Part shown: in pieces, positions 28,570-42,416 of the stretch
Layout of the letters: each line of letters starts with the position of its first letter
Position numbering within the stretch: position 1 is the first letter of the stretch
Source: Amycolatopsis bullii
Lineage (GTDB): Bacteria; Actinomycetota; Actinomycetes; Mycobacteriales; Pseudonocardiaceae
Reading direction: 5' to 3'
Length of the DNA stretch: 64,000 nucleotides
NCBI RefSeq assembly: GCF_014654205.1
Contig: NZ_BNAW01000018.1
Span: forward strand, 62,001 to 126,000
Notes under the pieces: generated by a model
What the model saw: only the letters and a program-made list of their open reading frames with translations
Databases searched by the model: none
What the model was told of the DNA's origin: nothing
Program-made: the position numbers and the translations under genes

Positions 28570-28643
28570 CGGGGTGTGGCGCAGCTTGGTAGCGTGCCTC
28601 GTTCGGGTCGAGGAGGTCGTGGGTTCAAATCCCGCCACCCCGA
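28570..28643 (+). tRNA. tRNA-Pro (anticodon CGG)
   Basis: Acceptor CGGGGTG (28570-28576) pairs with CACCCCG (28636-28642), discriminator A at 28643. The anticodon stem CCTCG/CGAGG encloses loop TTCGGGT with anticodon CGG at 28604-28606. The T arm GTGGG-TTCAAAT-CCCGC is standard. CCA is not encoded. Confidence 0.95.
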
Positions 28644-28648
28644 CGAGT

Positions 28649-31602: not shown

Positions 31603-31634
31603 GGCGGCTCCTGCAGGTAGGTGACGCCCGGAAG

Positions 31635-32654
31635 CTAGCACCACGCCGGTATGGCGGCCGCGTACTGGGGTACCAGCCGCGCGCCCAGCGAGGCCTTCAT
31701 CTCGGCCATCTTCTTGCCGAACACCACGGACGTGCGCCCGCACCCGACCGCCCAGCGCACCGCTTCGCCGTAGAAGTGGAAGTACAGGTTCGGCCGGCCG
31801 CCGTCCTCGGGCCGGAGCGCACCCCAGTGCCGGGCGATCGGCTGCTCCGGGTGGTCGAACAACGTCGCCAGGGCGATCAGCCGGCCGGTCCGCGTGTCCC
31901 GGTACTCGATCACCCCGACGTCGGGCTGGCGCAGCAGCGCCGTCAGGTAGCCGGTGAAGTGCGGGAGCGGCACGATCGGCACGTCGTGGTGCTTGCGCTC
32001 GTTCACCCGGAGCACCTCCGCGACGGCGACCGGGTCGGCGTCCTTCCCCGGCACGAACCGCACCTCGACCGACGGGTCGGCGTCGAAGGTGCGGAAGATC
32101 TTGCGCAGGTTCTGCTTCCGCTTCCGGGCCAGGGAGTTCATCCAGTCGTCGCGGGAGCCGAACTCCGCGACGTCGAGCACGGCGACGTCCTCGGTCCGCC
32201 GCACCAGCCGGAACCGGCCGGAGACGGCGTCCTGCCCCGCCGCCCCGACCTGCCGCAGCAGCAGCCCGCCGAACCCCGGCCCGAGCTCGGCCCGCATCGC
32301 CGGGACGTACGTTTCGAGCAGCCGCCGCACGCCGCCGTCGGCGTCGTCGCCGTCGAACCACCAGCCGGGTTGCGAACTCGCGCCCGGCCCGCGGACGTCG
32401 AGACCGCCCACGCGGCCCCGGCCGGCCCCCGCGAACCGGTACCGCCGGGTGCGGGCGGTGACCCACGCGGCGCTGACCACCCCGCACGGCCGGTCCCCGT
32501 CCCGGAACACCGTGATCGGCTGCGGGGTCCGCGCGGCCCAGGCCTGCGTGGCCAGCACCTCCCAGCTCCAGTCGGCCCGGAGCCCGGCCCGCTCGCGCAA
32601 CGCCGTCCAGTACCCGGGTTCCGGGTCGTGGCGCGGGTCGAGGACGTCGATCAT
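31635..32654 (-). CDS. FemAB/GNAT-like acyltransferase, third paralogue
   Basis: A 339-residue protein of the FemAB/Acetyltransf_6 kind. The tandem-GNAT layout shows LDPRHDPEPGYWTALRERAG at the start, ARKRKQNLRKIFRTF (a basic helix), VNERKHHDVPIVPLPHFTGY, and the C-terminal block FHFYGEAVRWAVGCGRT with KKMAEMKASLGARL. It aligns end to end with the two genes upstream but is the most diverged and ends in IPAWC instead of PRPVLGR. ATG at 32654 overlaps the upstream stop. Such enzymes add amino acids (from tRNA) or acyl groups to envelope precursors; donor and acceptor are unknown. Confidence 0.75.
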   Translation of the reverse strand: MIDVLDPRHDPEPGYWTALRERAGLRADWSWEVLATQAWAARTPQPITVFRDGDRPCGVVSAAWVTARTRRYRFAGAGRGRVGGLDVRGPGASSQPGWWFDGDDADGGVRRLLETYVPAMRAELGPGFGGLLLRQVGAAGQDAVSGRFRLVRRTEDVAVLDVAEFGSRDDWMNSLARKRKQNLRKIFRTFDADPSVEVRFVPGKDADPVAVAEVLRVNERKHHDVPIVPLPHFTGYLTALLRQPDVGVIEYRDTRTGRLIALATLFDHPEQPIARHWGALRPEDGGRPNLYFHFYGEAVRWAVGCGRTSVVFGKKMAEMKASLGARLVPQYAAAIPAWC

Positions 32655-33718
32655 CGGCCCAGCACCGGCCGGGGCACGGCCACCGAGAACAGGCTCCGCG
32701 TGCCGAAGCCCAGCGCGGACTTCTCGGGCAGCATGGCCCGGCCCGCGGTCAGCTCCGGCCTGCGCGCGGCGATCATGTGGGCCACGCACTTCGCGTAACA
32801 GTCGACATAGAGACCCTTCCGGCCGCCGGCCGCGCTCGGCAGCGCGGCCCAGTGGTGGACCGCGCAGCCGCTCTCCTGGTCGATCATCGTGTTGAAGCCG
32901 AGCAGCCGGCCGTCGCCGTCGCGGTAGGTGCGGGTCAGCACGTCCGGCCGCCGGACGAGCGCGTCGAGGTACCCGGACGCGATCGGGCTGCGGGTGTCCA
33001 GGTGCAGCCCGCCGACGCGCGAGCGCTGCCCGCCCGCCCACGCGCGTTCGTCCTGCCGGGCGCGGTGGGCGTTGAGCAGCACCGCCAGCTCGTGCGGGTC
33101 GAGGTCGGTCCGCCCGAACGCCGCTTCGGTGGCGACGTCGGCGTGCAGGTACCGCCGGACCTCGGGGCTCAGCGACGCCTCCCACTCGGCCGGTGTGGCG
33201 TAGGTGTTGCGCAGCACGGCGGCCGGATCGATCTCGCGGCTGATCCGGCCGCGGCCCGTCAGCGCCGGCACCAGCTCCGGATTCATCGCCCGGTAGACCA
33301 CCCCGAGCAGGCCGGCACCGACGTACTGCCGCAGCGCCCGTTCGAACTCGCGGATCGCCTCGCGCCGCGAAGGCGCGTCGACGTCGTCGTCGAAGACGCA
33401 CGCGGGATAGCCGCTCAGCAGCGGGAGGTAGACCTCGGCCCAGCGCAGCGGGAACCGGCCACCGGACACCGGCGCGAACTCCCGCGCACCCCAGCCGCGG
33501 CACACCATCACCGACAGCGCGCCGACGACCCGGGCGCCCCGCCGGACCACCGCGAGCACCGGCGGGTTCTTCGCCAGCCACGCCTCGCGGCGCAGCAGCT
33601 CGTAGTCCCACACGGGCGGCAGGCAGCGGCTGCGGAAGGCGGCCCAGCCGTCGGGCGGCGGGTCGGTCCGCGGGTCGTGGACCGACACGGCTGTCGTCGT
33701 CGAAGCGAGCGCGGTCAT
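32651..33718 (-). CDS. FemAB/GNAT-like acyltransferase, second paralogue
   Basis: A 355-residue paralogue. Opening HDPRTDPPPDGWAAF and VWDYELLRREAWLAKNP are nearly shared with the first paralogue (HDPRVDPAPAGWTEF, VWDYELLGLEAWGARNP). The C-terminus LTAGRAMLPEKSALGFGTRS, ending VAVPRPVLGR, also matches. No membrane helix is seen, so it works in the cytosol or at the inner face of the membrane. ATG overlaps both neighbours. Copies in tandem suggest successive additions to one acceptor. Confidence 0.75.
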   Translation of the reverse strand: MTALASTTTAVSVHDPRTDPPPDGWAAFRSRCLPPVWDYELLRREAWLAKNPPVLAVVRRGARVVGALSVMVCRGWGAREFAPVSGGRFPLRWAEVYLPLLSGYPACVFDDDVDAPSRREAIREFERALRQYVGAGLLGVVYRAMNPELVPALTGRGRISREIDPAAVLRNTYATPAEWEASLSPEVRRYLHADVATEAAFGRTDLDPHELAVLLNAHRARQDERAWAGGQRSRVGGLHLDTRSPIASGYLDALVRRPDVLTRTYRDGDGRLLGFNTMIDQESGCAVHHWAALPSAAGGRKGLYVDCYAKCVAHMIAARRPELTAGRAMLPEKSALGFGTRSLFSVAVPRPVLGR

Positions 33719-34755
33719 CGGCCGAGCACCGGCCTCGGTGCCGCGGCCGCGTAGAGCTTGCGCGGCAGGAACCCCAGCTCCTCCTTGAGCTCGTTCATCC
33801 CGCGGCCCGCCGACAGCTCCTTCGCCCCGCGCTGCGTCATGAACCGCACCGCGCGGACGTAGGAATCGAAGTACAGCCCCGATCCCCGGCCGCGCTCGTC
33901 CAGCGGCAGCGCCGCCCAGTGCTGCAGGCACGGGCTGTCCGGGTGGTCGAGGAGGGTGTTCACCGCGAGCAGCCGGCCGCTGGGGTCGGCGTAGGTGAGC
34001 GTGTGCACGTCCGGCCGCCGGATGAACCGGTGCAGGAAGCCCGCGGACGGGACCGTGCGCGTGTCCAGCGGCAGCTTCCCGTAGCGCTCCCGGTGCGCCT
34101 TGACCAGGGCGGCGACCTCGGCGCCGTCGACGTCGTCGCGGCCGGGTCCACCGCGGACGACCAGCTCCGGGTCTTCGGCGATCCGGCGGCGCCGCCGTCG
34201 CAGGCTCGAACGCCGGGCGCTGGGCAGCGTCTTGAGCCAGTCCTCTTCGGACTGGAACCGGTTCTCCAGCACGGCCGTCGACTGCGCGGGCCGGACCAGG
34301 CGGCCGAGGCCCGCGGTGTGCCCCGCGAACTCCTCGTCGATCGCGCGGTAGAGGACGCCGAGGAGGCCGGGCCCGAGGTGGCGCCGCAGCGCCCGTTCGA
34401 ACTCGCGGAGCAGCGCGGCCCGGTCGCCGGCCGGGAAACCCGGCGCGAACACGATGCCCGGGTAGCCGCTCAGCCACGGCAGGAACACCTCGGCCCAGAT
34501 CGGCCGCAGCGATCGCCGTCCCGGCGCGGGCGCGAACCGCGGAGCCAGCCGCGGGTGGCAGACCAGCACGGACAGCCCGGCCACGATCTCGCCGCCGTCC
34601 CTCGCGACGGCGATCCGCTGCGGGTTGCGGGCGCCCCACGCTTCGAGGCCCAGCAGCTCGTAGTCCCACACCGGGTGCAGCCGCGCGGTCCGGAAGAACT
34701 CCGTCCAGCCCGCAGGTGCCGGGTCCACGCGGGGATCGTGGAACTCGAACCTCAT
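33715..34755 (-). CDS. FemAB/GNAT-like acyltransferase, first paralogue
   Basis: A 346-residue paralogue starting at ATG 34755. Features: FHDPRVDPAPAGWTEFFRTA, VWDYELLGLEAW, the very basic helix SARRSSLRRRRRRIAEDPEL near residue 190, and LDTRTVPSAGFLHRFIRRPD. The C-terminus has SAGRGMNELKEELGFLPRKL and ends APRPVLGR. The basic helix could bind RNA or phosphate-rich donors, which would fit aminoacyl-tRNA use, but this is inference. Coupled by ATGA to the PaaK-like gene upstream. Confidence 0.75.
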   Translation of the reverse strand: MRFEFHDPRVDPAPAGWTEFFRTARLHPVWDYELLGLEAWGARNPQRIAVARDGGEIVAGLSVLVCHPRLAPRFAPAPGRRSLRPIWAEVFLPWLSGYPGIVFAPGFPAGDRAALLREFERALRRHLGPGLLGVLYRAIDEEFAGHTAGLGRLVRPAQSTAVLENRFQSEEDWLKTLPSARRSSLRRRRRRIAEDPELVVRGGPGRDDVDGAEVAALVKAHRERYGKLPLDTRTVPSAGFLHRFIRRPDVHTLTYADPSGRLLAVNTLLDHPDSPCLQHWAALPLDERGRGSGLYFDSYVRAVRFMTQRGAKELSAGRGMNELKEELGFLPRKLYAAAAPRPVLGR

Positions 34756-35522
34756 GTCAGGACGACCGGGGTGCCGTGGCGCGGGCAGGGAGCGATCTCG
34801 CCACGCACCCCACCGGCCGGGAGGACGTCCACGAACCGCGGGGAATCCTGGCGCAGCAGGGTGAAGGCGAGCCCGCCGGCGGTGGGCCGCGCGTAGACGT
34901 GCGGCCAGTCGAGGTGCCACCGGCCGCAGTTCCCGAGTGCGCCGAGGTACCCGAGCACCGGGTCGTGCAGCACGCCGTAGGGACCGCTGTCCAGCGAGTC
35001 CAGTTCGCGGTGCGGCACGGCCTCGATCCGGTGGGCCTCGGGGACCGCGGCGGTGACCGCGGTGATGGCCTTGTCTTCGCCGACCACGAGCACGCGGTGC
35101 CCCCGGTGCAGCACGGCCGTCAGCTCGCGAAGCACCGAGGCGCCCGGCCCGTTCGGGTCCGCGACGCAGCCGCGTACCCCCTTCGGCAGGTCGGACGGCG
35201 GCCGCAGGCCGTCCGGCCCGAGCAGGACGACCAGGCTCTCCGGCCCGGGAGCCCGGGCCGTCCGCAGCACCCGGCCGAGACCGCGCGCGGGGTCGGGCCG
35301 TGGCGCGCCGCCGGCGAGCGGCACGAGGTCGACGAGTTTGTGCACAGCTTCCGCGAGGGGTGCCGCGCCGCCGTTCGTCCCGGTGCGACCGGGCACGACA
35401 ACCGGGTCCTCCCGGCCGTCGAGCGCCCAGCGCTCGCGGTAGAACGGCACCGTGGCGAACGCCGACCGCACCGCCCTGACGTAGGCAGCACGCCAGACGA
35501 CCCCCGCCCCCAGATTCCACAT
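34752..35522 (-). CDS. Shortened PaaK-like (CoA-ligase-family) protein
   Basis: A 256-residue protein that resembles the two ends of phenylacetate-CoA-ligase-type enzymes. Residues 12-33 (AAYVRAVRSAFATVPFYRER) fit the N-terminal helix, and the C-terminal DPVLGYLGALGNCGRWHLD then IAPCPRHGTP fits the region after the adenylation core. The usual Ser/Thr/Gly-rich ATP-binding loop is not found and about 170 residues of the core are missing. It may be a non-catalytic scaffold or degenerate enzyme, yet it opens a fully coupled operon with the three FemAB-like genes, so it is probably used. Confidence 0.55.
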   Translation of the reverse strand: MWNLGAGVVWRAAYVRAVRSAFATVPFYRERWALDGREDPVVVPGRTGTNGGAAPLAEAVHKLVDLVPLAGGAPRPDPARGLGRVLRTARAPGPESLVVLLGPDGLRPPSDLPKGVRGCVADPNGPGASVLRELTAVLHRGHRVLVVGEDKAITAVTAAVPEAHRIEAVPHRELDSLDSGPYGVLHDPVLGYLGALGNCGRWHLDWPHVYARPTAGGLAFTLLRQDSPRFVDVLPAGGVRGEIAPCPRHGTPVVLT

Positions 35523-35724
35523 GGCCGGGAAGTCTGCGTCATCCGCCGGGTCAGCGGAAGCACTTCGCCGGCAGGAAGCCCGAATGCCGGGTGGCTCACG
35601 ACTTTAGTCTGCGTCTGAACGGACTAATTCATCCGGATTCCCTCCCGAACGACGATCCGCATGCTTATAACTCGGCGATGCCGTAAAACGGCATGCTGTC
35701 CAACCGGATCCAACTGGGGGATTC
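35523..35724. promoter_or_regulatory. Divergent control region of the envelope locus
   Basis: A 202-base region that looks visibly less GC-rich than its surroundings. It contains the inverted repeat ATGCCGT-AAA-ACGGCAT (35678-35694) and two GCATGC hexamers. It must hold the promoters of both operons of the locus. No regulator is encoded within the locus. Confidence 0.6.
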
Positions 35725-35796
35725 ATGTTCAGCATTTGCACTGTCGGTGAGCGCGCGGACACAAATCCGGCAACTCGCCGTTGGCGCCGCAGATGA
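35725..35796 (+). CDS. Possible 23-residue leader or micro-peptide
   Basis: ATG at 35725 is preceded by GGGGG (35716-35720), a good ribosome-binding site for this genome. The 23 codons encode MFSICTVGERADT then NPATRRWRRR, with one Cys and a strongly basic end. The TGA stop overlaps the ATG of the glycosyltransferase (ATGA), the same coupling used throughout the operon. It may be a real small protein, or just a leader that loads ribosomes onto the next gene. Too short for homology reasoning. Confidence 0.45.
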   Translation: MFSICTVGERADTNPATRRWRRR

Positions 35797-36803
35797 CCAC
35801 GGCCTTTCCCGACCCGGTCGACTGTGGACTCACCGTGGTCGTACCGTGCTTCAACGAAGTTGAAAATATCGAACCGTCCTATCGGGAAATAACCAACGAA
35901 CTGGGCCACTATTCACTCGAACTTATTTTCGTCGATGACGGAAGCACCGATGGCACGCTCGCCGGTATCCGCGCGCTCGCGGCCGCGGACCCGCGCGTGC
36001 GGTACCTGTCTTTCACCCGCAATTTCGGATTCGAAGCGGCTTTCTCGGCCGGTTACCGGTATGCGTCCCGGCCGTGGGTCCTGCACGTCGACGCCGATCA
36101 GCAGTTCCCCGCCGCCGAGGCGGAAAAGCTCATCGAAGCCGCCCGCCAGGGCAACGACGCGGTCTTCGGGGTCCGCACCAACCGCCAGGACCCGCTGCTG
36201 CGCCGCTGGGGCACCGCCGCGTTCCACTTCCTCGGCCGCCGCGTGCTGCGCATCGAGATCCCGCCGGGCGCGACCGCGTTCCGGCTGGTCCGCACCGAGC
36301 TGGCCCGCCGGATCGTCGACCTGCGGCTCGGCACGCCGTACTTCCTGGCCACGGTTCCCCGGCTGACCAGCCGGTACACCTGCGTCCAGGTGGCGCACCG
36401 GGCCCGGGAACGCGGCGAATCGAAGGTCGGCTTCGGCTTCCTGGCTTCGCACGCCATCGAGCTGTTCGTCGGGTTCACCCGGAGGCTGACGACGGCGGCG
36501 TCCGCGACCGCCCTGTCCGCGGGCGGGCTCGGGGTACTGGCCGCCGCCGCGGCGGCCTTCGGGCTGCTCGGCGCGAGCGCCACGGCCGCGTTGCTGTTCG
36601 CGCTGCTCAGCGTGCTGCTGGTCGTCCTGTCGCTGACCGTGCGCTACCTCGTCGTGGTCGGTGCGGGACAGCCGCGGCCCCGGCAGTTCTACGTCCGGGA
36701 AGCGAACTTCGCCGTCGAGGCGGACGACCGGCTCTTCACTTCGGAGGACCCGGCGGGTCCCCGGCTCATCGATGTGCAACTGGGGAAAGGCGTTTCAGCG
36801 TGA
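35793..36803 (+). CDS. GtrB/DPM1-type family 2 glycosyltransferase
   Basis: A 336-residue membrane glycosyltransferase. The GT-A domain shows VVVPCFNEVENIEPSY, FVDDGSTDGT, FTRNFGFEAAFSAGY and the DxD at Asp100-Ala-Asp102 (HVDADQQFP). Two C-terminal helices (about 235-290) anchor it, as in GtrB/ArnC enzymes that transfer a sugar to polyprenyl phosphate. Start ATG 35793; an upstream TTG was rejected. The first 90 codons use A/T-ending codons more than the rest of the window, perhaps a trace of transfer. Coupled to the ATP-grasp gene by GTGA. Confidence 0.88.
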   Translation: MTTAFPDPVDCGLTVVVPCFNEVENIEPSYREITNELGHYSLELIFVDDGSTDGTLAGIRALAAADPRVRYLSFTRNFGFEAAFSAGYRYASRPWVLHVDADQQFPAAEAEKLIEAARQGNDAVFGVRTNRQDPLLRRWGTAAFHFLGRRVLRIEIPPGATAFRLVRTELARRIVDLRLGTPYFLATVPRLTSRYTCVQVAHRARERGESKVGFGFLASHAIELFVGFTRRLTTAASATALSAGGLGVLAAAAAAFGLLGASATAALLFALLSVLLVVLSLTVRYLVVVGAGQPRPRQFYVREANFAVEADDRLFTSEDPAGPRLIDVQLGKGVSA

Positions 36804-38041
36804 CGAGTTCGAAGAACGGCCCGGCGAGAACCCTGGTGATCCTGGGGGGCGCGGACGGTTCGGTCAGCACCTACGAGCGAGCGCGGGAACTGGGGTTCCG
36901 CACGCTCTGCGTCGACGTCCGGCCCGGCGCACCGGCCGTGGCGTACGCCGACGAGTTCCTGCAGGTCAGCGTGCGCGCGCCGGAGCAGATCGCGGCCGCG
37001 CTCGACGGCCGTGACGACCTCGCCGGCGTGCTGTGCCCGGCCAGCGACGTCGGCCTGCCCGCACTGGCCTGGCTGACCCGGCACTGGGGCATGCCGGATC
37101 CGCTGCCCGTGGCCGCGGTCGAGGCCTCGACCGACAAAGCGGTGTTCCGCGCCCTGTGCGACCACCTCGGCCTGCCGGGCTACCGCAGCGTCAGCGGCCG
37201 CCCCGGGCCGGAACTGGTCCACGCGGCCCAGCAGCTGCGGTTCCCCGCCCTGGTCAAGCCGGTCGACTCCTCCGGTAGCCGGGGCGTGGTCTCCTGCCCC
37301 GGCCCGGGCCGGCTGACCAGTGCGTTCGCCGAGTCGCTCGCGTTCTCGCCGTCCGGACGGCTGGTCGTCGAGGAACACCTCGACGGCACCCACTTCACGA
37401 TCGAGGCGCTGGTCGTCGACGGCCGGGTCGTCTTCCACGCCGTCACCGAACGGACCCTCACGCCGCCGCCGTTCTTCGTGACGTCGTCGCACCTGCTGCC
37501 CGCCGCGCTGCCGGCGGACGCCGAACTGCGGCTGATCGAGGCCCTCGACCTGATCTGCACCGAGCTCGGCTACCGGAGCGGGCCGCTCACGCTGGACGCC
37601 GTGCTCGGCCGCGACGGGCAGCTGTACCTCGTCGAGATGGGGGCCCGCATGGGCGGGAACGGGCTCGCGGAAGCGATCGCGCAGTGCCACGGCGCCGACC
37701 TGATCGCCGCCGGGATCGCCACCGCGACCGGCGGTGAGGTGCGGCTGGACCTGCACGAGCCGAAGCCCACCCTGGTGCACGTCCTCGCGTCCGACCGCGG
37801 CGGGCACTTGTCCCGAGTGGACGGTGTCGAGGACGTGCGCGCGCTGCCCGGGCTGGTCGGGCTCCACCTGTTCGCCGACGAGGGTTCCTTCGTCCGGCCG
37901 TACGACCAGGCGGGCCACAAGCTGGGGTACGCCGTGCTCACCGCCGACTCGGTGCCCGAGCTGCTCGCCGCGGAGAACGCGGTGCGCGGCACGCTGAAGT
38001 TCCTGCTCCACGAGCAGGACATGGCGGTACCCCTGCCGTGA
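36800..38041 (+). CDS. ATP-grasp ligase
   Basis: A 413-residue ATP-grasp enzyme starting at GTG 36800. The N-terminal pre-grasp domain reads LVILGGADGSVSTYERAREL. The ATP site has Lys153 in VKPVDSSGSRGV, an EEHLDG segment, and the Mg-binding Glu279 in LVEMGARMGGNG. The C-terminal part (about 310-413) resembles the biotin-carboxylase C-terminal or CarB-like cap. Such enzymes join a carboxylate, via acyl phosphate, to an amine. In this operon it probably attaches an amino-acid-like group to a sugar or lipid; the substrate is not deducible. Confidence 0.85.
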   Translation: MTSSKNGPARTLVILGGADGSVSTYERARELGFRTLCVDVRPGAPAVAYADEFLQVSVRAPEQIAAALDGRDDLAGVLCPASDVGLPALAWLTRHWGMPDPLPVAAVEASTDKAVFRALCDHLGLPGYRSVSGRPGPELVHAAQQLRFPALVKPVDSSGSRGVVSCPGPGRLTSAFAESLAFSPSGRLVVEEHLDGTHFTIEALVVDGRVVFHAVTERTLTPPPFFVTSSHLLPAALPADAELRLIEALDLICTELGYRSGPLTLDAVLGRDGQLYLVEMGARMGGNGLAEAIAQCHGADLIAAGIATATGGEVRLDLHEPKPTLVHVLASDRGGHLSRVDGVEDVRALPGLVGLHLFADEGSFVRPYDQAGHKLGYAVLTADSVPELLAAENAVRGTLKFLLHEQDMAVPLP

Positions 38042-39291
38042 CGGGCCCCTCCTCGGCCACCACCGCGCCGGCCGTGGCGCCGCCGCGGCCGGCGGTGGTG
38101 CTGCGGCTGCTCGCCGGCCGGGGCGCGTTCCGGCTGTCGGTCCAGCTGATGGGCCTGGTCCTGATCACCGCGTGGGGCGCCCGCGACTACGGGCGGTTCG
38201 CGAACGCGCTCGGCCTGATGACCTGGCTCAACTTCGTCCCGGGCGCGGCGGAGAAGGCCGCGCTCAAGGCTCTCCCCCGGCTGCGGCTGACCCTGGACGC
38301 GGTCGCCGCGCTCGCGGTCCGGGTCGCCGCGGTGCCGGTGCTGGTGGTGCTGGCCGCCATGGCCGTCACGCTCGTGGTGGCCCCGCGCTCGGACGCGGCG
38401 CTGTACCTGACCGTGGCGGCCTGGTCGATCTCCGGCGGCCTGCTGATGACCGTGTCCGGCCTGCACCGCCTGCGCGGGAAGTCCACATTGGACGCATTGG
38501 CGTTCACCGCCGGCTCGGTCGTCGTCGGCGTGGTGACCTGCCTGACGTGGGTGGTGCGGTGGCCGCCCGGGATGCACCTGGCCCTGCTGCTCGGCGGCCT
38601 GCTGGTGATCCTCGGCGCGTCGGTCGCGCTCCTGCCGCGGCCGTGGCTGGGCGGCGGCGGGCTGCCGGGGCACCGGCTCCTGCCGGCCTTCGGGCGCAGC
38701 ACGGTCCTGCTCGGCCTGACCGAGGTGCTCGACGTGCTCGCGACGTCGACGGTGTTCGGCGTGTTCGCGCTGTCCGGACGGACCACCGAAAGCGGCCCGT
38801 TCTACCTGGCGCTGCTCGTGTCGAGCGCGTTCTGCTCGCTGGTGTTCTACCAGCTGAAACTGCACCAGCCGACGGCGTCGTGGCGGATGCGCGGCACCGG
38901 CGCGGCGGCCGGCCGGGCCCGGGCCGTCGAACTGCTGAAGCTGGTCGAGCGCGGCGGGATCGCGTTCGCCGTGCTGCTGGCCGCCGGGCTCGCGGTGCCG
39001 TCGACGCGGGCGTTGCTCACCGACGAAGACAGCTACGTCGTGCTCGGGGTGCTCGTGCTCGTCGAGACGGCGTTGTACGCGACCGGGATCTACGCGAGCT
39101 TCCTCGTCGAAAACACCAACAGCAAGGTGCTGACGCTGACGTCGGGCGCCGCCGTCGTCTCACTGGTCGCGACCGCCGCCGCCGCGGCCCTGCTCGTCCC
39201 GCCGCTCGGGCCGGTGGGCGGGTTCGCCGCGCTCGTCTTCGCGCTCGCGGTCAAGGCGGCCGTCCTGCGCCGTCTGGTCCGCCGTCACTGA
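38038..39291 (+). CDS. Wzx/PST-like flippase membrane protein
   Basis: A 417-residue integral membrane protein with about 12 helices, starting at GTG 38038. The N-terminus RGAFRLSVQLMGLVLITAWG then YGRFANALGLMTWL is like polysaccharide flippases of the MATE/MOP superfamily (helix, loop with YGxF, helix). Charged residues are sparse in the helices. Expected role is to flip a polyprenyl-linked glycan or glycolipid across the membrane. Its stop overlaps by one base an in-frame ATG of the next gene. Confidence 0.78.
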   Translation: MTGPSSATTAPAVAPPRPAVVLRLLAGRGAFRLSVQLMGLVLITAWGARDYGRFANALGLMTWLNFVPGAAEKAALKALPRLRLTLDAVAALAVRVAAVPVLVVLAAMAVTLVVAPRSDAALYLTVAAWSISGGLLMTVSGLHRLRGKSTLDALAFTAGSVVVGVVTCLTWVVRWPPGMHLALLLGGLLVILGASVALLPRPWLGGGGLPGHRLLPAFGRSTVLLGLTEVLDVLATSTVFGVFALSGRTTESGPFYLALLVSSAFCSLVFYQLKLHQPTASWRMRGTGAAAGRARAVELLKLVERGGIAFAVLLAAGLAVPSTRALLTDEDSYVVLGVLVLVETALYATGIYASFLVENTNSKVLTLTSGAAVVSLVATAAAAALLVPPLGPVGGFAALVFALAVKAAVLRRLVRRH

Positions 39292-39314
39292 TGTCTGCAC
39301 ACTGGGAGGAAGTC

Positions 39315-41126
39315 ATGTACGTACTGGGCATCAGCAGGGTCCACGACTCGGCCGCGGCCCTCGTGCGCGACGGCGAGATCATCGCCTTCGCCGAAGAGGA
39401 ACGCTTCACGCGCGTCAAGCACGACGGCGGCTTCCCCGCCGAGGCCATCAAGTTCTGCCTGGAGCAGGGCGGGATCACCCTCGCCGACGTCGACCACGTC
39501 GCCTACTACTGGCAGCGCTGGAAGGAGGGGATCCACGCGGCCAAGGTGTTCGCCCGGTACTTCCCGGGCACGCTGGAGGTCTTCCGCAACACCAACGGCG
39601 ACGAGGGCGGCCGGTCCGCGGGGATGGTGGACACGTTCAAGACCGGCGGTGGCTCGGGCAGCGACGACTACCACGTCGGCGGCGCGGTCCTCGCGCACAT
39701 CAAGCGCTCCTACACGCTGGAGAAGGACGTCAAGGAAGCCGTCGGCTGGACCGGTCCGACGAAGTTCAAGACACACCTGGTCGACCACCACCGCGCGCAC
39801 GCGGCCAGCGGCTACTTCATCTCGCCGTGGGACGAGTCGGCCGTGCTCACCTTCGACGGCATCGGCAGCGACGGCACGGCCACCTACCTCGCGCACGGCC
39901 GCGGCGACCGGATCGTCGACCTGCGGCGGATCAAGTTCCCGCACTCCCTCGGCGCGATGTACGCCGGCGTCACCGGCTACCTCGGCTTCTACCCGACCCG
40001 TGACGAGGGCAAGATCATGGGTCTCGCGCCGCTGGGCGAGGACACCTACGTCGACGCGTTCAAGCAGCTGATCCACCTCAGTGACGACGGCGGCTTCGAG
40101 CTGGACCTCAGCTGGTTCGGGCACCACCGGACCGGCAAGCACGTGATGGCGAAGAAGTTCACCGACACCTTCGGCCCGGCCCGGCCGAAGACCCGCGTCA
40201 CGGCGGAGAACCCGGTGCCGCAGCACTACTGCGACATCGCCTACGCCCTGCAGGTGACGCTGGAGGAAGCCGGCCTGCACCTGGCCCGGTGGCTCCAGCG
40301 TGAGACGGGGTCGAAGCGGTTGTGCGTCGCCGGCGGTGTCGCGCTGAACAGCGTCATGAACGGCCGGATCCTGCTGGAGACACCGTTCGAGGACTTCTTC
40401 GCCCAGCCCGCGGCCGCCGACGACGGCTGCGCGCTCGGTGCCGCGCTCGAGGTCTCGGTCGGCAAGTACCACCGGCCGCGCCCGCGCGAGGGCTACACCT
40501 ACACCGGTCCCGAGTACACCGAGGCCGAGATGGAAGTGGCGTTGCAGGACGCCGGGGTCGAGTACGCGCGTGTCGACGACATCGCCGCGCACACGGCCGC
40601 GAAGGTGGCCGACGGCCGCATCGTCGGCTGGGTGCAGGGCCGGATGGAGTGCGGCCCGCGGGCCCTCGGCAACCGCTCCCTCGTCGCCGACCCGCGCGAC
40701 CCCGAATCGAAGACGCGGATGAACGAGAAGGTCAAGCACCGCGAGGCGTTCCGCCCGTTCGCGCCGTCGTGCCTGGCCGAGCGCGCGGGCGAGTACTTCG
40801 TCAGCGACTACCCGTCGCCGGTGATGCTGCTGGTGTTCGACGTCCTGCCGGACAAGCGCGCCGAGGTCCCGGCGATCACCCACGTCGACGGGACCGCGCG
40901 GGTGCAGACCGTCAGCCGGGAGGACAATCCGCTGTACTACCGGATGATCAGCGAGTTCGAGAAGCTGACCGGGGTGCCGATGGTGGTCAACACCTCGTTC
41001 AACGACAACAACGAGCCGATCGTGGCGAGCCCGCAGGACGCCATCGCCTGCTACCTGAAGACCGACGTCGACGCGCTGGCCCTCGGCCCGTTCTGGGTGG
41101 AGAAGCCGCGGCTGGAGGAAGAGTGA
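39315..41126 (+). CDS. NodU/CmcH-family O-carbamoyltransferase
   Basis: A 603-residue carbamoyltransferase that uses carbamoyl phosphate and ATP to carbamoylate hydroxyls of sugars or antibiotics. The N-terminal TsaD-like domain has GISRVHDSAAALV, VDHHRAHAASGYF with metal-binding His at 158, 159 and 162, TFDGIGSDGTATYL and AGGVALNSVMNGRI. The C-terminal domain has MECGPRALGNRSLVADPR (Glu445, Arg449), HREAFRPFAPS and VNTSFNDNNEPIV. ATG 39315 is chosen because GGGAGGA lies five bases upstream; an in-frame ATG at 39291 would add eight residues. Confidence 0.93.
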   Translation: MYVLGISRVHDSAAALVRDGEIIAFAEEERFTRVKHDGGFPAEAIKFCLEQGGITLADVDHVAYYWQRWKEGIHAAKVFARYFPGTLEVFRNTNGDEGGRSAGMVDTFKTGGGSGSDDYHVGGAVLAHIKRSYTLEKDVKEAVGWTGPTKFKTHLVDHHRAHAASGYFISPWDESAVLTFDGIGSDGTATYLAHGRGDRIVDLRRIKFPHSLGAMYAGVTGYLGFYPTRDEGKIMGLAPLGEDTYVDAFKQLIHLSDDGGFELDLSWFGHHRTGKHVMAKKFTDTFGPARPKTRVTAENPVPQHYCDIAYALQVTLEEAGLHLARWLQRETGSKRLCVAGGVALNSVMNGRILLETPFEDFFAQPAAADDGCALGAALEVSVGKYHRPRPREGYTYTGPEYTEAEMEVALQDAGVEYARVDDIAAHTAAKVADGRIVGWVQGRMECGPRALGNRSLVADPRDPESKTRMNEKVKHREAFRPFAPSCLAERAGEYFVSDYPSPVMLLVFDVLPDKRAEVPAITHVDGTARVQTVSREDNPLYYRMISEFEKLTGVPMVVNTSFNDNNEPIVASPQDAIACYLKTDVDALALGPFWVEKPRLEEE

Positions 41127-41824
41127 CCGTCCTGGATTCACCCGGTTTGGTCGCCGCGCTGTACCGGCGGCGGCAGTGGCTGTGGCTGGTGGCCGCCGTT
41201 CCCGCGGTGGTCACCACGCTGCTGATCATGGTGGTGCTGCCGCCGGACCAGACGCTGGACAACGTCGGCGACTGGGCGTTCAAGCTGTGCCCGTTCGTCT
41301 TCGCGGTGCTGACCGTGGCGCTGTTCCCGCGCGGGCGGTTCGGGCCGGCCCTGATCGTGTTCGCGGTGTTCGTCTACATGTCCTATTTGGACACGGAACT
41401 GGTCATGCGGGTCCAGCAGTTCGCCAGGGAAGCGCCCACGAACGACGACGCGTTCCAGCCGGTGTACCAGTTCGAGCTGTTCGTGACGACGTTCATCGTG
41501 CTGTTCGCGCTGCTGGCCTACCGCCTCGGCGGCGGCCGGACGGCGAACGTGCTCAAGGTCGGCGTCGCGTCGATCCTGGTGGTCATCTCGGGTGTGAACG
41601 ACCTGACGTTCTGGGCGCTCAACGACGTCTGGTCGGCGGGGACGAAGCCGACCGAGCTGAAGTGGGCGTCGCACATGATCGTGTTCCTCGGCGGGCCGCC
41701 GAGCGTGCCGGCCGCGGTCGCGTTCATGGCCGTGCACCTGGTGCTGGCCGCGATCGTGGTCGCGCTGCCGGTGGGGCGGTGGGTGACGGTCAGAGTCCGC
41801 GGTTCACAGCCTGCAGCTTCGTGA
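41123..41824 (+). CDS. Six-helix membrane protein of the envelope locus
   Basis: A 233-residue protein with six predicted helices (around WLVAAVPAVVTTLLIMVVL, FVFAVLTVALF, ALIVFAVFVYMSYL, FVTTFIVLFALLAY, VGVASILVVISGVND and AVAFMAVHLVLAAIVVALP). I recognise no family. GTG start overlaps the carbamoyltransferase stop, so it belongs to the operon; it may be a membrane partner of the carbamoyltransferase or exporter. The 3' end overlaps the convergent TIGR03085 gene by 35 bases. Confidence 0.75.
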   Translation: MTVLDSPGLVAALYRRRQWLWLVAAVPAVVTTLLIMVVLPPDQTLDNVGDWAFKLCPFVFAVLTVALFPRGRFGPALIVFAVFVYMSYLDTELVMRVQQFAREAPTNDDAFQPVYQFELFVTTFIVLFALLAYRLGGGRTANVLKVGVASILVVISGVNDLTFWALNDVWSAGTKPTELKWASHMIVFLGGPPSVPAAVAFMAVHLVLAAIVVALPVGRWVTVRVRGSQPAAS

Positions 41825-42416
41825 CGGCGGCCGCGTCGCCCTCGAAGCCGAGCTTCACGGCGTCGCGGCCGAACACGAACAACAGCAGGTCGACCGGGTC
41901 GCCGACCACGGTGACCGGGTCGGGCCCGGTCTTGACCGCGGCCTCGCGGCCGTCTTTCGTGCGGAGGGTGACGCCGACCGGCGCCTTGCGCAGGTTCAGC
42001 TTGGCGGCCTGCTTCGCCGACTTCCAGGCGGCGGCGTCCCGGGTGGGGTCCGCGGGCCGCGGTTCCCAGCCGGGCTGCGCCCGCCGGACGTCCTCGTGGT
42101 GCACGAGGAACTCGGCGGTGTTCGTGAGCTCGTCGAGCGGGCCGATCGCGGTGGGCCAGAACTTCGCCGGGCCGGTGCGGACCTGGCCCACGAGCTCGCC
42201 CCAGGGCTTGGCGGCGTAGCGGTCCTGCACCTTCCGGGTGTACCCGGCGAGCGCGGGCACGAGGATGCCGGGCGCGGCGTCCGGCCGGTGCTCCCGCACG
42301 ACGAGGTGCGCGGCGAGGTCCCGCGTGGTCCAGCCCTCGCACAACGTCGGCGCGTCCGGCCCGAGGTCTTCGAAGAGCGCGCTCAGCGCCCGGCGTTCGT
42401 CAGCAGCGACACCCAT
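41790..42416 (-). CDS. TIGR03085-family (DinB/MDMPI-like) protein
   Basis: A 208-residue protein of the mycothiol-dependent maleylpyruvate-isomerase-like fold. Signatures: EDLGPDAPTLCEGWTTRDLA, AAHLVVREHRPDAAPG with a metal-binding His, and TNTAEFLVHHEDVRRAQPGW carrying two more His. The three His form the usual zinc site. Function not established in this subfamily. ATG start at 42416. Confidence 0.85.
   Translation of the reverse strand: MGVAADERRALSALFEDLGPDAPTLCEGWTTRDLAAHLVVREHRPDAAPGILVPALAGYTRKVQDRYAAKPWGELVGQVRTGPAKFWPTAIGPLDELTNTAEFLVHHEDVRRAQPGWEPRPADPTRDAAAWKSAKQAAKLNLRKAPVGVTLRTKDGREAAVKTGPDPVTVVGDPVDLLLFVFGRDAVKLGFEGDAAAVTKLQAVNRGL

Follow-up and report, generated by a model that had tools for sequence, protein, structure and literature searches.

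The locus raises two questions, namely whether two operons that face a single control region belong to one system, and what such a system would make. Within the window, a 64,000-nucleotide stretch of the Amycolatopsis bullii genome (assembly size 9.38 Mb), a divergent two-operon block comprises nine genes plus a very short leader gene (Table 1). The gene calls agreed with the positions and divergent operons described in an earlier note on this DNA, and with its overlaps of 1-4 bases within each operon. The minus operon runs in the order PaaK-like gene, fem3, fem2, fem1 with overlaps of 4, 4 and 4 bases, and the plus operon, leader included, has overlaps of 4, 4, 4, 1 and 4 bases, all eight junctions being overlapped. 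The products of fem1, fem2, the PaaK-like gene, the putative flippase gene and the last membrane protein gene had no match in Pfam (E 0.1) or NCBIfam (E 0.01), and the block contains neither a sugar-nucleotide gene nor a recognised acceptor transferase.

Table 1 Features of the cassette and its control region, in window coordinates
Feature	Position	Strand	Remarks
Whole cassette	31609-41791		From empty-site junctions; left edge +/- ~6 bases
fem1 (F1)	31635-32654	-	GNAT/FemAB-like; sole paralogue retained in all 33 loci
fem2 (F2)	32651-33718	-	GNAT/FemAB-like paralogue
fem3 (F3)	33715-34755	-	GNAT/FemAB-like paralogue; above Acetyltransf_6 cut-off
PaaK-fold protein	34752-35522	-	Shortened (N-domain only); invariant Cys199, His203, Cys246, His249
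CTGAACGG block	35615-35622		In shared control region; mostly conserved in alignment of 34 loci
TATAAC element	35666-35671	+	Conserved in at least 97% of 34 aligned loci
Leader ORF	35725-35796	+	23 codons; stop overlaps GT2 start (ATGA)
GT2	35793-36803	+	GtrB/ArnC polyprenyl-phosphate type
ATP-grasp ligase	36800-38041	+	Carboxylate-amine ligase (ATP-grasp_4 + LAL_C2); GT2 fusion in 13 relatives
Polytopic membrane protein	38038-39291	+	Putative flippase/exporter
O-carbamoyltransferase	39291-41126	+	NodU/CmcH family
Last (small) membrane protein	41123-41824	+	Unnamed family; ~6 transmembrane helices

The same divergent gene order was present in all 33 other loci mapped (30 in Amycolatopsis and 3 in Prauserella; L016-L021 were left uncounted as they are on the same contigs as L034, L042, L041, L035, L060 and L045), and each had the PaaK-like, GT2, ATP-grasp, polytopic protein, carbamoyltransferase and last membrane protein genes, so the layout is not a product of chance. 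A search of 60 genomes yielded the PaaK-like gene in 14 (own included), every one of which belongs to Amycolatopsis, and the last membrane protein had a patchy distribution (31 of 80 Amycolatopsis genomes, own included). Among the 36 Amycolatopsis genomes common to both searches, both proteins occurred in 14 (own included) and neither in 22.

Empty sites, in which the tautomerase gene on the left adjoins the gene at 41790-42416 on the right, were identified in 23 of 52 genomes, comprising 49 Amycolatopsis genomes without the last membrane protein together with G047, G079 and G095. The 29 genomes without a close tautomerase match were uninformative, and in three the other flank was not closely matched. 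The gap between the flanks was 12-42 bp by alignment, with 168 bp in G095 where the alignment was partial. Six empty sites that were read closely placed the right edge at 41792 (five of six; 41832 in L101) and the left edge at 31603-31608, and the span outlined in the earlier note is therefore approximately the whole inserted block. G079 and G095 had an empty site between these flanks and the cassette at another place. The cassette is thus inherited as a discrete unit that moves or is lost whole. By eye, other contexts included a hemW-like/TetR pair in four loci, and still other flanking genes for A. marina, A. antarctica and Prauserella. The possibility that these genes are chance neighbours with no common pathway is contradicted by their co-occurrence and by the empty-site data, and is considered extremely improbable. 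The proposal of one system had come with the proviso that related genomes in which the operons never co-occur would count against it; instead both operons were retained at every mapped locus along with the gene set, and the block is present or absent as a whole.

Matches to the PaaK-like and GT2 genes were 259-315 bp apart across the loci, and in this shared region the TATAAC element could be the -10 element of the plus operon. The leader ORF, previously listed as a possible 23-codon ORF, was present in all 34 loci and is 21-23 codons long. Its ATG follows a purine-rich stretch (in the window a Shine-Dalgarno-like GGGGG at 35716-35720), and its peptide sequence is divergent. Its stop overlapped the GT2 start by 4 bases in 32 of 34 loci and by 1 base in L023 and L024, measured from GT2 start codons that were chosen by script in 33 loci. 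The ORF is best read as a coupled leader that would pass ribosomes to GT2 through translational coupling.

GT2 matched Pfam Glycos_transf_2 (E 3.5e-31), has C-terminal membrane segments, and its profile matched the GtrB protein sll0501 over positions 5-289 of 332 and ArnC over positions 5-278; it fell below the NCBIfam cut-offs of PgfS and ArnC. The profile matches are in line with the polyprenyl-type GT2 proposed earlier and point, probably, to a polyprenyl-phosphate sugar. The adjacent gene was likewise rightly named an ATP-grasp ligase, with ATP-grasp_4 (E 5e-12) and LAL_C2 (E 1e-14) both above the Pfam cut-off and a match to BL00235 in the PDB. GT2 and the ligase form a single 744-residue frame in 13 of the 33 loci (L047-L059, of which L047 was translated), and these 13 cases probably reflect one event. 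The fusion is the strongest sign that the ligase acts on the substrate or product of GT2.

The three GNAT/FemAB-like proteins (F proteins) had been called FemAB-like, and this label held only in part. At E 0.01, 9 of 22 aligned F proteins matched Acetyltransf_6 (PF13480) and 7 matched FemAB_like (PF04339), some below cut-off, while none of the 22 matched PF02388 (FemABX), so other acyl donors are equally possible. In the window only fem3 had a Pfam match, to Acetyltransf_6 (26.1 bits, cut-off 22), and it also matched FemAB_like below cut-off. A tree of 47 F proteins separated F1, F2, F3 and F4 by one branch each (support 100/100, 100/99, 93/92 and 92/88), and since each group lies on one side of its branch across Amycolatopsis and Prauserella, the four are old and distinct. 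Three genes is the number in the window, which has no member of the F4 group, but it is not the rule, as 22 of the 33 loci have all four, six are without F3, three without F2 and two without F4, and F1 was never lost (names in four-gene loci were given by position and checked by tree for 12 loci and the window). Paralogues that are old, distinct and singly losable would fit successive or alternative acylations.

The PaaK-like protein, modelled at pLDDT 95, has the fold of the PaaK N-terminal domain, with AjiA1 and NatL2 among the fold matches. In the best 12 matches, to PaaK-family chains of 422-434 residues, its last residue (256) aligns with residues 319-326, and by structure alignment the C-terminal domain of PaaK ligases is absent. 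The PaaK label given earlier is thus apt for the N-domain but not for a complete ligase, and the protein would more likely serve the F proteins as a binding partner or scaffold.

The polytopic protein shares 50-86% identity with the window copy across relatives, and some homologues are named polysaccharide biosynthesis or O-antigen/teichoic acid export proteins by their sources. Only these names point to the Wzx-like flippase of the earlier note, which is putative; no Polysacc_synt or MatE family match exceeded the cut-off. The carbamoyltransferase was as anticipated of the NodU/CmcH type, with Carbam_trans_N (203.5 bits, E 8e-60) and Carbam_trans_C (241.5 bits, E 5e-72) both above cut-off. 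Its solved relatives include GdmN, decarbamoylnovobiocin carbamoyltransferase and TobZ, and the motifs HHxAHA, GPRALG and NTSFN..EPIV, which we presume to be catalytic, are shared with four GdmN chains and decarbamoylnovobiocin carbamoyltransferase, the motifs having been chosen from those same alignments.

The last membrane protein, 65-95% identical to the window copy across relatives, has about six helices in its model (pLDDT 86), in keeping with the six-helix protein expected. No clear fold match was obtained by structure search of the model, and no Pfam domain or functional name appeared among the 120 matches listed of 383 homologues. Tyr115, Arg134, Asp160, Trp170, Trp181, His184 and His205 are invariant among the 24 aligned relatives, which reach down to 27% identity. 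L062, whose gene reaches the contig end, was left out of the membrane-protein alignment. Arg/Lys residues number two at the N terminus, two in loop 2, one in loop 4 and three at the C terminus, with none in loops 1 and 3 and two in loop 5. These counts suggest that the N terminus is inside and that Asp160, Trp170, Trp181 and His184 would face outward.

Of 249 Pseudonocardiaceae genomes sampled from 46 genera, 33 genomes in 7 genera carried the last membrane protein, and 20 further neighbourhoods were opened (two of them, L081 and L082, repeat the contigs of L022 and L023). Loci L075-L085 are of the type that has the carbamoyltransferase, and their F genes number two to four, including L083 and L084 with an extra epimerase gene before GT2, L084 and L085 with a second ATP-grasp gene, and L077 in which the polytopic protein is missing. 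Eight loci in two genera (L086-L093) have the PaaK-like, F, GT2, ATP-grasp, polytopic and last membrane protein genes, and no carbamoyltransferase was found within the 20 kb opened per locus. One genome, G147, holds one locus of each type (L077 and L088). All opened Pseudonocardiaceae loci share F1, the PaaK-like protein, GT2, the ATP-grasp ligase and the last membrane protein, and this survey of L075-L093 identifies carbamoyltransferase presence and F gene number as variable. Among nine of the wider loci, an ORF similar to the leader overlaps or abuts the GT2 start in five, none is present in L077 and L079, and the epimerase gene lies upstream in L083 and L084. At least nine loci have an epimerase-like gene ahead of GT2 (judged by eye apart from L083, L090 and L087), and the best solved relatives of the L087 epimerase are UDP-glucose 4-epimerases, with MoeE5 lower in the ranking.

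Beyond the family, locus L094 from another actinobacterial class encodes a relative of the last membrane protein, whose gene overlaps an ATP-grasp gene and has a FemAB_like gene and a Polysacc_synt flippase gene nearby. The L094 FemAB_like protein matched the F profile with 92% probability, its ATP-grasp protein matched that of the cassette weakly (30% probability), and its flippase had no profile match to the polytopic protein. Four distant relatives of the ATP-grasp ligase (24-27%) were located in clostridial MAGs among genes that by eye resemble surface-polysaccharide genes, and a search of these loci with the F proteins gave no match.

Taken together, we give about an even chance to the reading that the product of the cassette is a polyprenyl-phosphate sugar that is decorated and destined for the cell envelope. 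GT2 would transfer a sugar from a nucleotide donor onto polyprenyl phosphate at the inner leaflet, and the ATP-grasp ligase would join an amino acid or similar carboxylate to the sugar by an amide. The F proteins might extend or acylate the sugar, aminoacyl groups being a first guess, the carbamoyltransferase would O-carbamoylate the decorated lipid-linked sugar, and the polytopic protein would flip it. The last membrane protein, whose invariant residues lie mostly at the predicted outer face, could pass the sugar to an acceptor or trim the carrier. Several results weigh against this reading: the F proteins gave no PF02388 match, the putative flippase has no family match over cut-off and is missing from L077, sugar-nucleotide and recognised acceptor transferase genes are lacking, eight related loci have no carbamoyltransferase, the last membrane protein has no fold match, the L094 ATP-grasp match is weak and the clostridial loci yielded no F protein match. 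The earlier interpretation of the locus thus stands as to one unit, the GT2 type, the O-carbamoyltransferase and the ligase, and only in part as to the labels FemAB, PaaK and Wzx. A bolder and rather doubtful version, which would amount to a new class of envelope glycolipid chemistry, is that one bifunctional GT2-ATP-grasp enzyme directly makes an amino-acylated polyprenyl-phosphate sugar on which up to four F proteins and a PaaK-fold partner build a short peptide, followed by carbamoylation, flipping and transfer by a new membrane-enzyme family, giving a non-ribosomal peptidyl-sugar donor.

It is conceivable, as a minority possibility, that the block is instead a natural-product cluster for a secreted carbamoylated, acylated amino-sugar or lipo-glycoside with the polytopic protein as exporter. 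The patchy distribution in an antibiotic-rich family, the solved relatives of the carbamoyltransferase, the fold matches to AjiA1 and NatL2 and the match, among others, of a related-locus epimerase to MoeE5 would fit such a cluster, but no scaffold synthase, resistance or regulator gene was recognised within the block, gene content is almost fixed across the 33 loci, GT2 is of the membrane-bound polyprenyl-phosphate type, and both membrane proteins have retained the identities given above. An unlikely alternative is a lipid head-group modification, in which the F proteins (amino)acylate a GT2-made membrane glycolipid that is itself the end product, remains in the membrane and alters surface charge or permeability. 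The L094 relative of the F proteins also matched the MprF-type LPG_synthase_C (23 bits, not reaching the cut-off of 27.5), and the lack of a recognised acceptor transferase in the block also favours this idea, whereas it offers no function for the second membrane protein, and polyprenyl-phosphate sugars are usually donors and rarely end products.

If the decorated envelope sugar is correct, the cassette would be a defined, testable surface-modification unit in a family of antibiotic producers, and species with clean empty sites offer natural controls for a product hunt. No description of the block as a set was found in open-licence literature, by titles and abstract starts among the matches listed. 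Through natural fusion, an amino-acid-type ligase is linked to a glycosyltransferase of the lipid-carrier kind, and the shortened PaaK-fold protein and the last membrane protein are singled out as two groups that have no family name.

The cassette can be compared with several known systems. It shares with the GtrB/ArnC pathways the GT2 type and the expected lipid carrier, but adds the ligase fused to GT2 in 13 relatives, the F proteins and the carbamoyltransferase, and is without a large acceptor transferase, which we take GtrX and ArnT to be in those pathways. The NodU/CmcH enzymes GdmN, NovN (presumably the decarbamoylnovobiocin carbamoyltransferase) and TobZ have the same two domains and shared motifs, whereas the cassette enzyme lies in a membrane-sugar operon and its residues 76-142 are unaligned in the GdmN match. 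In contrast to the PaaK-family ligases PaaK1, AjiA1 and NatL2, the PaaK-fold protein has 256 residues only, no C-terminal domain and no Pfam match. Lipocone/VanZ domains, in the portions of the source consulted (PMC12419801), resemble the last membrane protein in being small and polytopic, in their conserved polar residues and in lying next to genes for lipid-carrier sugars, but the last membrane protein had no Pfam VanZ match and no fold match.

The closest precedent seen, by analogy, is the peptidyl-amido flagellar glycan of C. difficile. In the type B flagellin locus a FemAB-superfamily gene adjoins a PF13535 ATP-grasp gene, and, in the parts of the reports consulted, an ATP-grasp mutant made only the core trisaccharide, without the terminal Fuc3N with its taurinyl-Ala-Gly amide, as did mutants of GT3 and the cyclodeaminase homologue; no FemAB mutant could be obtained, and the exact role of the ATP-grasp protein was left undecided by the authors (PMC5207246, PMC5207245). 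That locus (CDR20291_0241-0247) shares with the cassette GT2-fold transferase, FemAB-superfamily and PF13535 ATP-grasp genes. It differs in serving a flagellin glycan, in a FemAB-like protein given as PF02388 by the authors, and in its aminotransferase and ornithine-cyclodeaminase homologues, and those parts of the text name no carbamoyltransferase, PaaK-fold or flippase gene; the cassette adds a carbamoyltransferase and two membrane proteins. The enzyme families of the cassette are known and their combination is one for which no description was found; new here are the GT2-ATP-grasp fusion, the four old F groups, the coupled leader, the PaaK N-domain protein and the unnamed family of the last membrane protein.

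Homologues of the polytopic membrane protein, the putative flippase or exporter of the cassette, were found at 45-48% identity (P0351-P0361), and those with a named source came from Nonomuraea, Acrocarpospora and Actinomadura. These homologues suggest, from protein sequence, that loci related to the cassette may exist beyond the Pseudonocardiaceae.

The core of the cassette without the carbamoyltransferase was present at eight loci from two other genera (L086-L093), most of which carried an additional, more divergent PaaK-like gene besides the first. The five of these second PaaK-like proteins that were aligned were 27-31% identical to the PaaK-like protein of the window. Among the wider Pseudonocardiaceae loci with a carbamoyltransferase, two from a single genus featured an additional ATP-grasp gene after the last membrane protein, sharing 48% (L084) and 45% (L085) identity with the ATP-grasps of the block. 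A protein of 177-182 residues was encoded at one edge of three wider loci, and the L085 copy, the sole one searched, had no Pfam match.

The A. bullii genome (G000) encodes another NodU-type carbamoyltransferase away from the cassette (L002, L003), which was 41-49% identical. A tRNA-Pro(CGG) gene is located 3 kb left of the cassette.

Coordinates of additional features in the window, the A. bullii genome and the wider loci
Feature	Source	Coordinates
177-182 residue edge protein	L077	12414-12953
177-182 residue edge protein	L083	3326-3874
177-182 residue edge protein	L085	820-1353
Second ATP-grasp	L084	13239-14450
Second ATP-grasp	L085	10899-12125
Second NodU-type carbamoyltransferase	G000:C42	21769-22731
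tRNA-Pro(CGG)	Window	28570-28644
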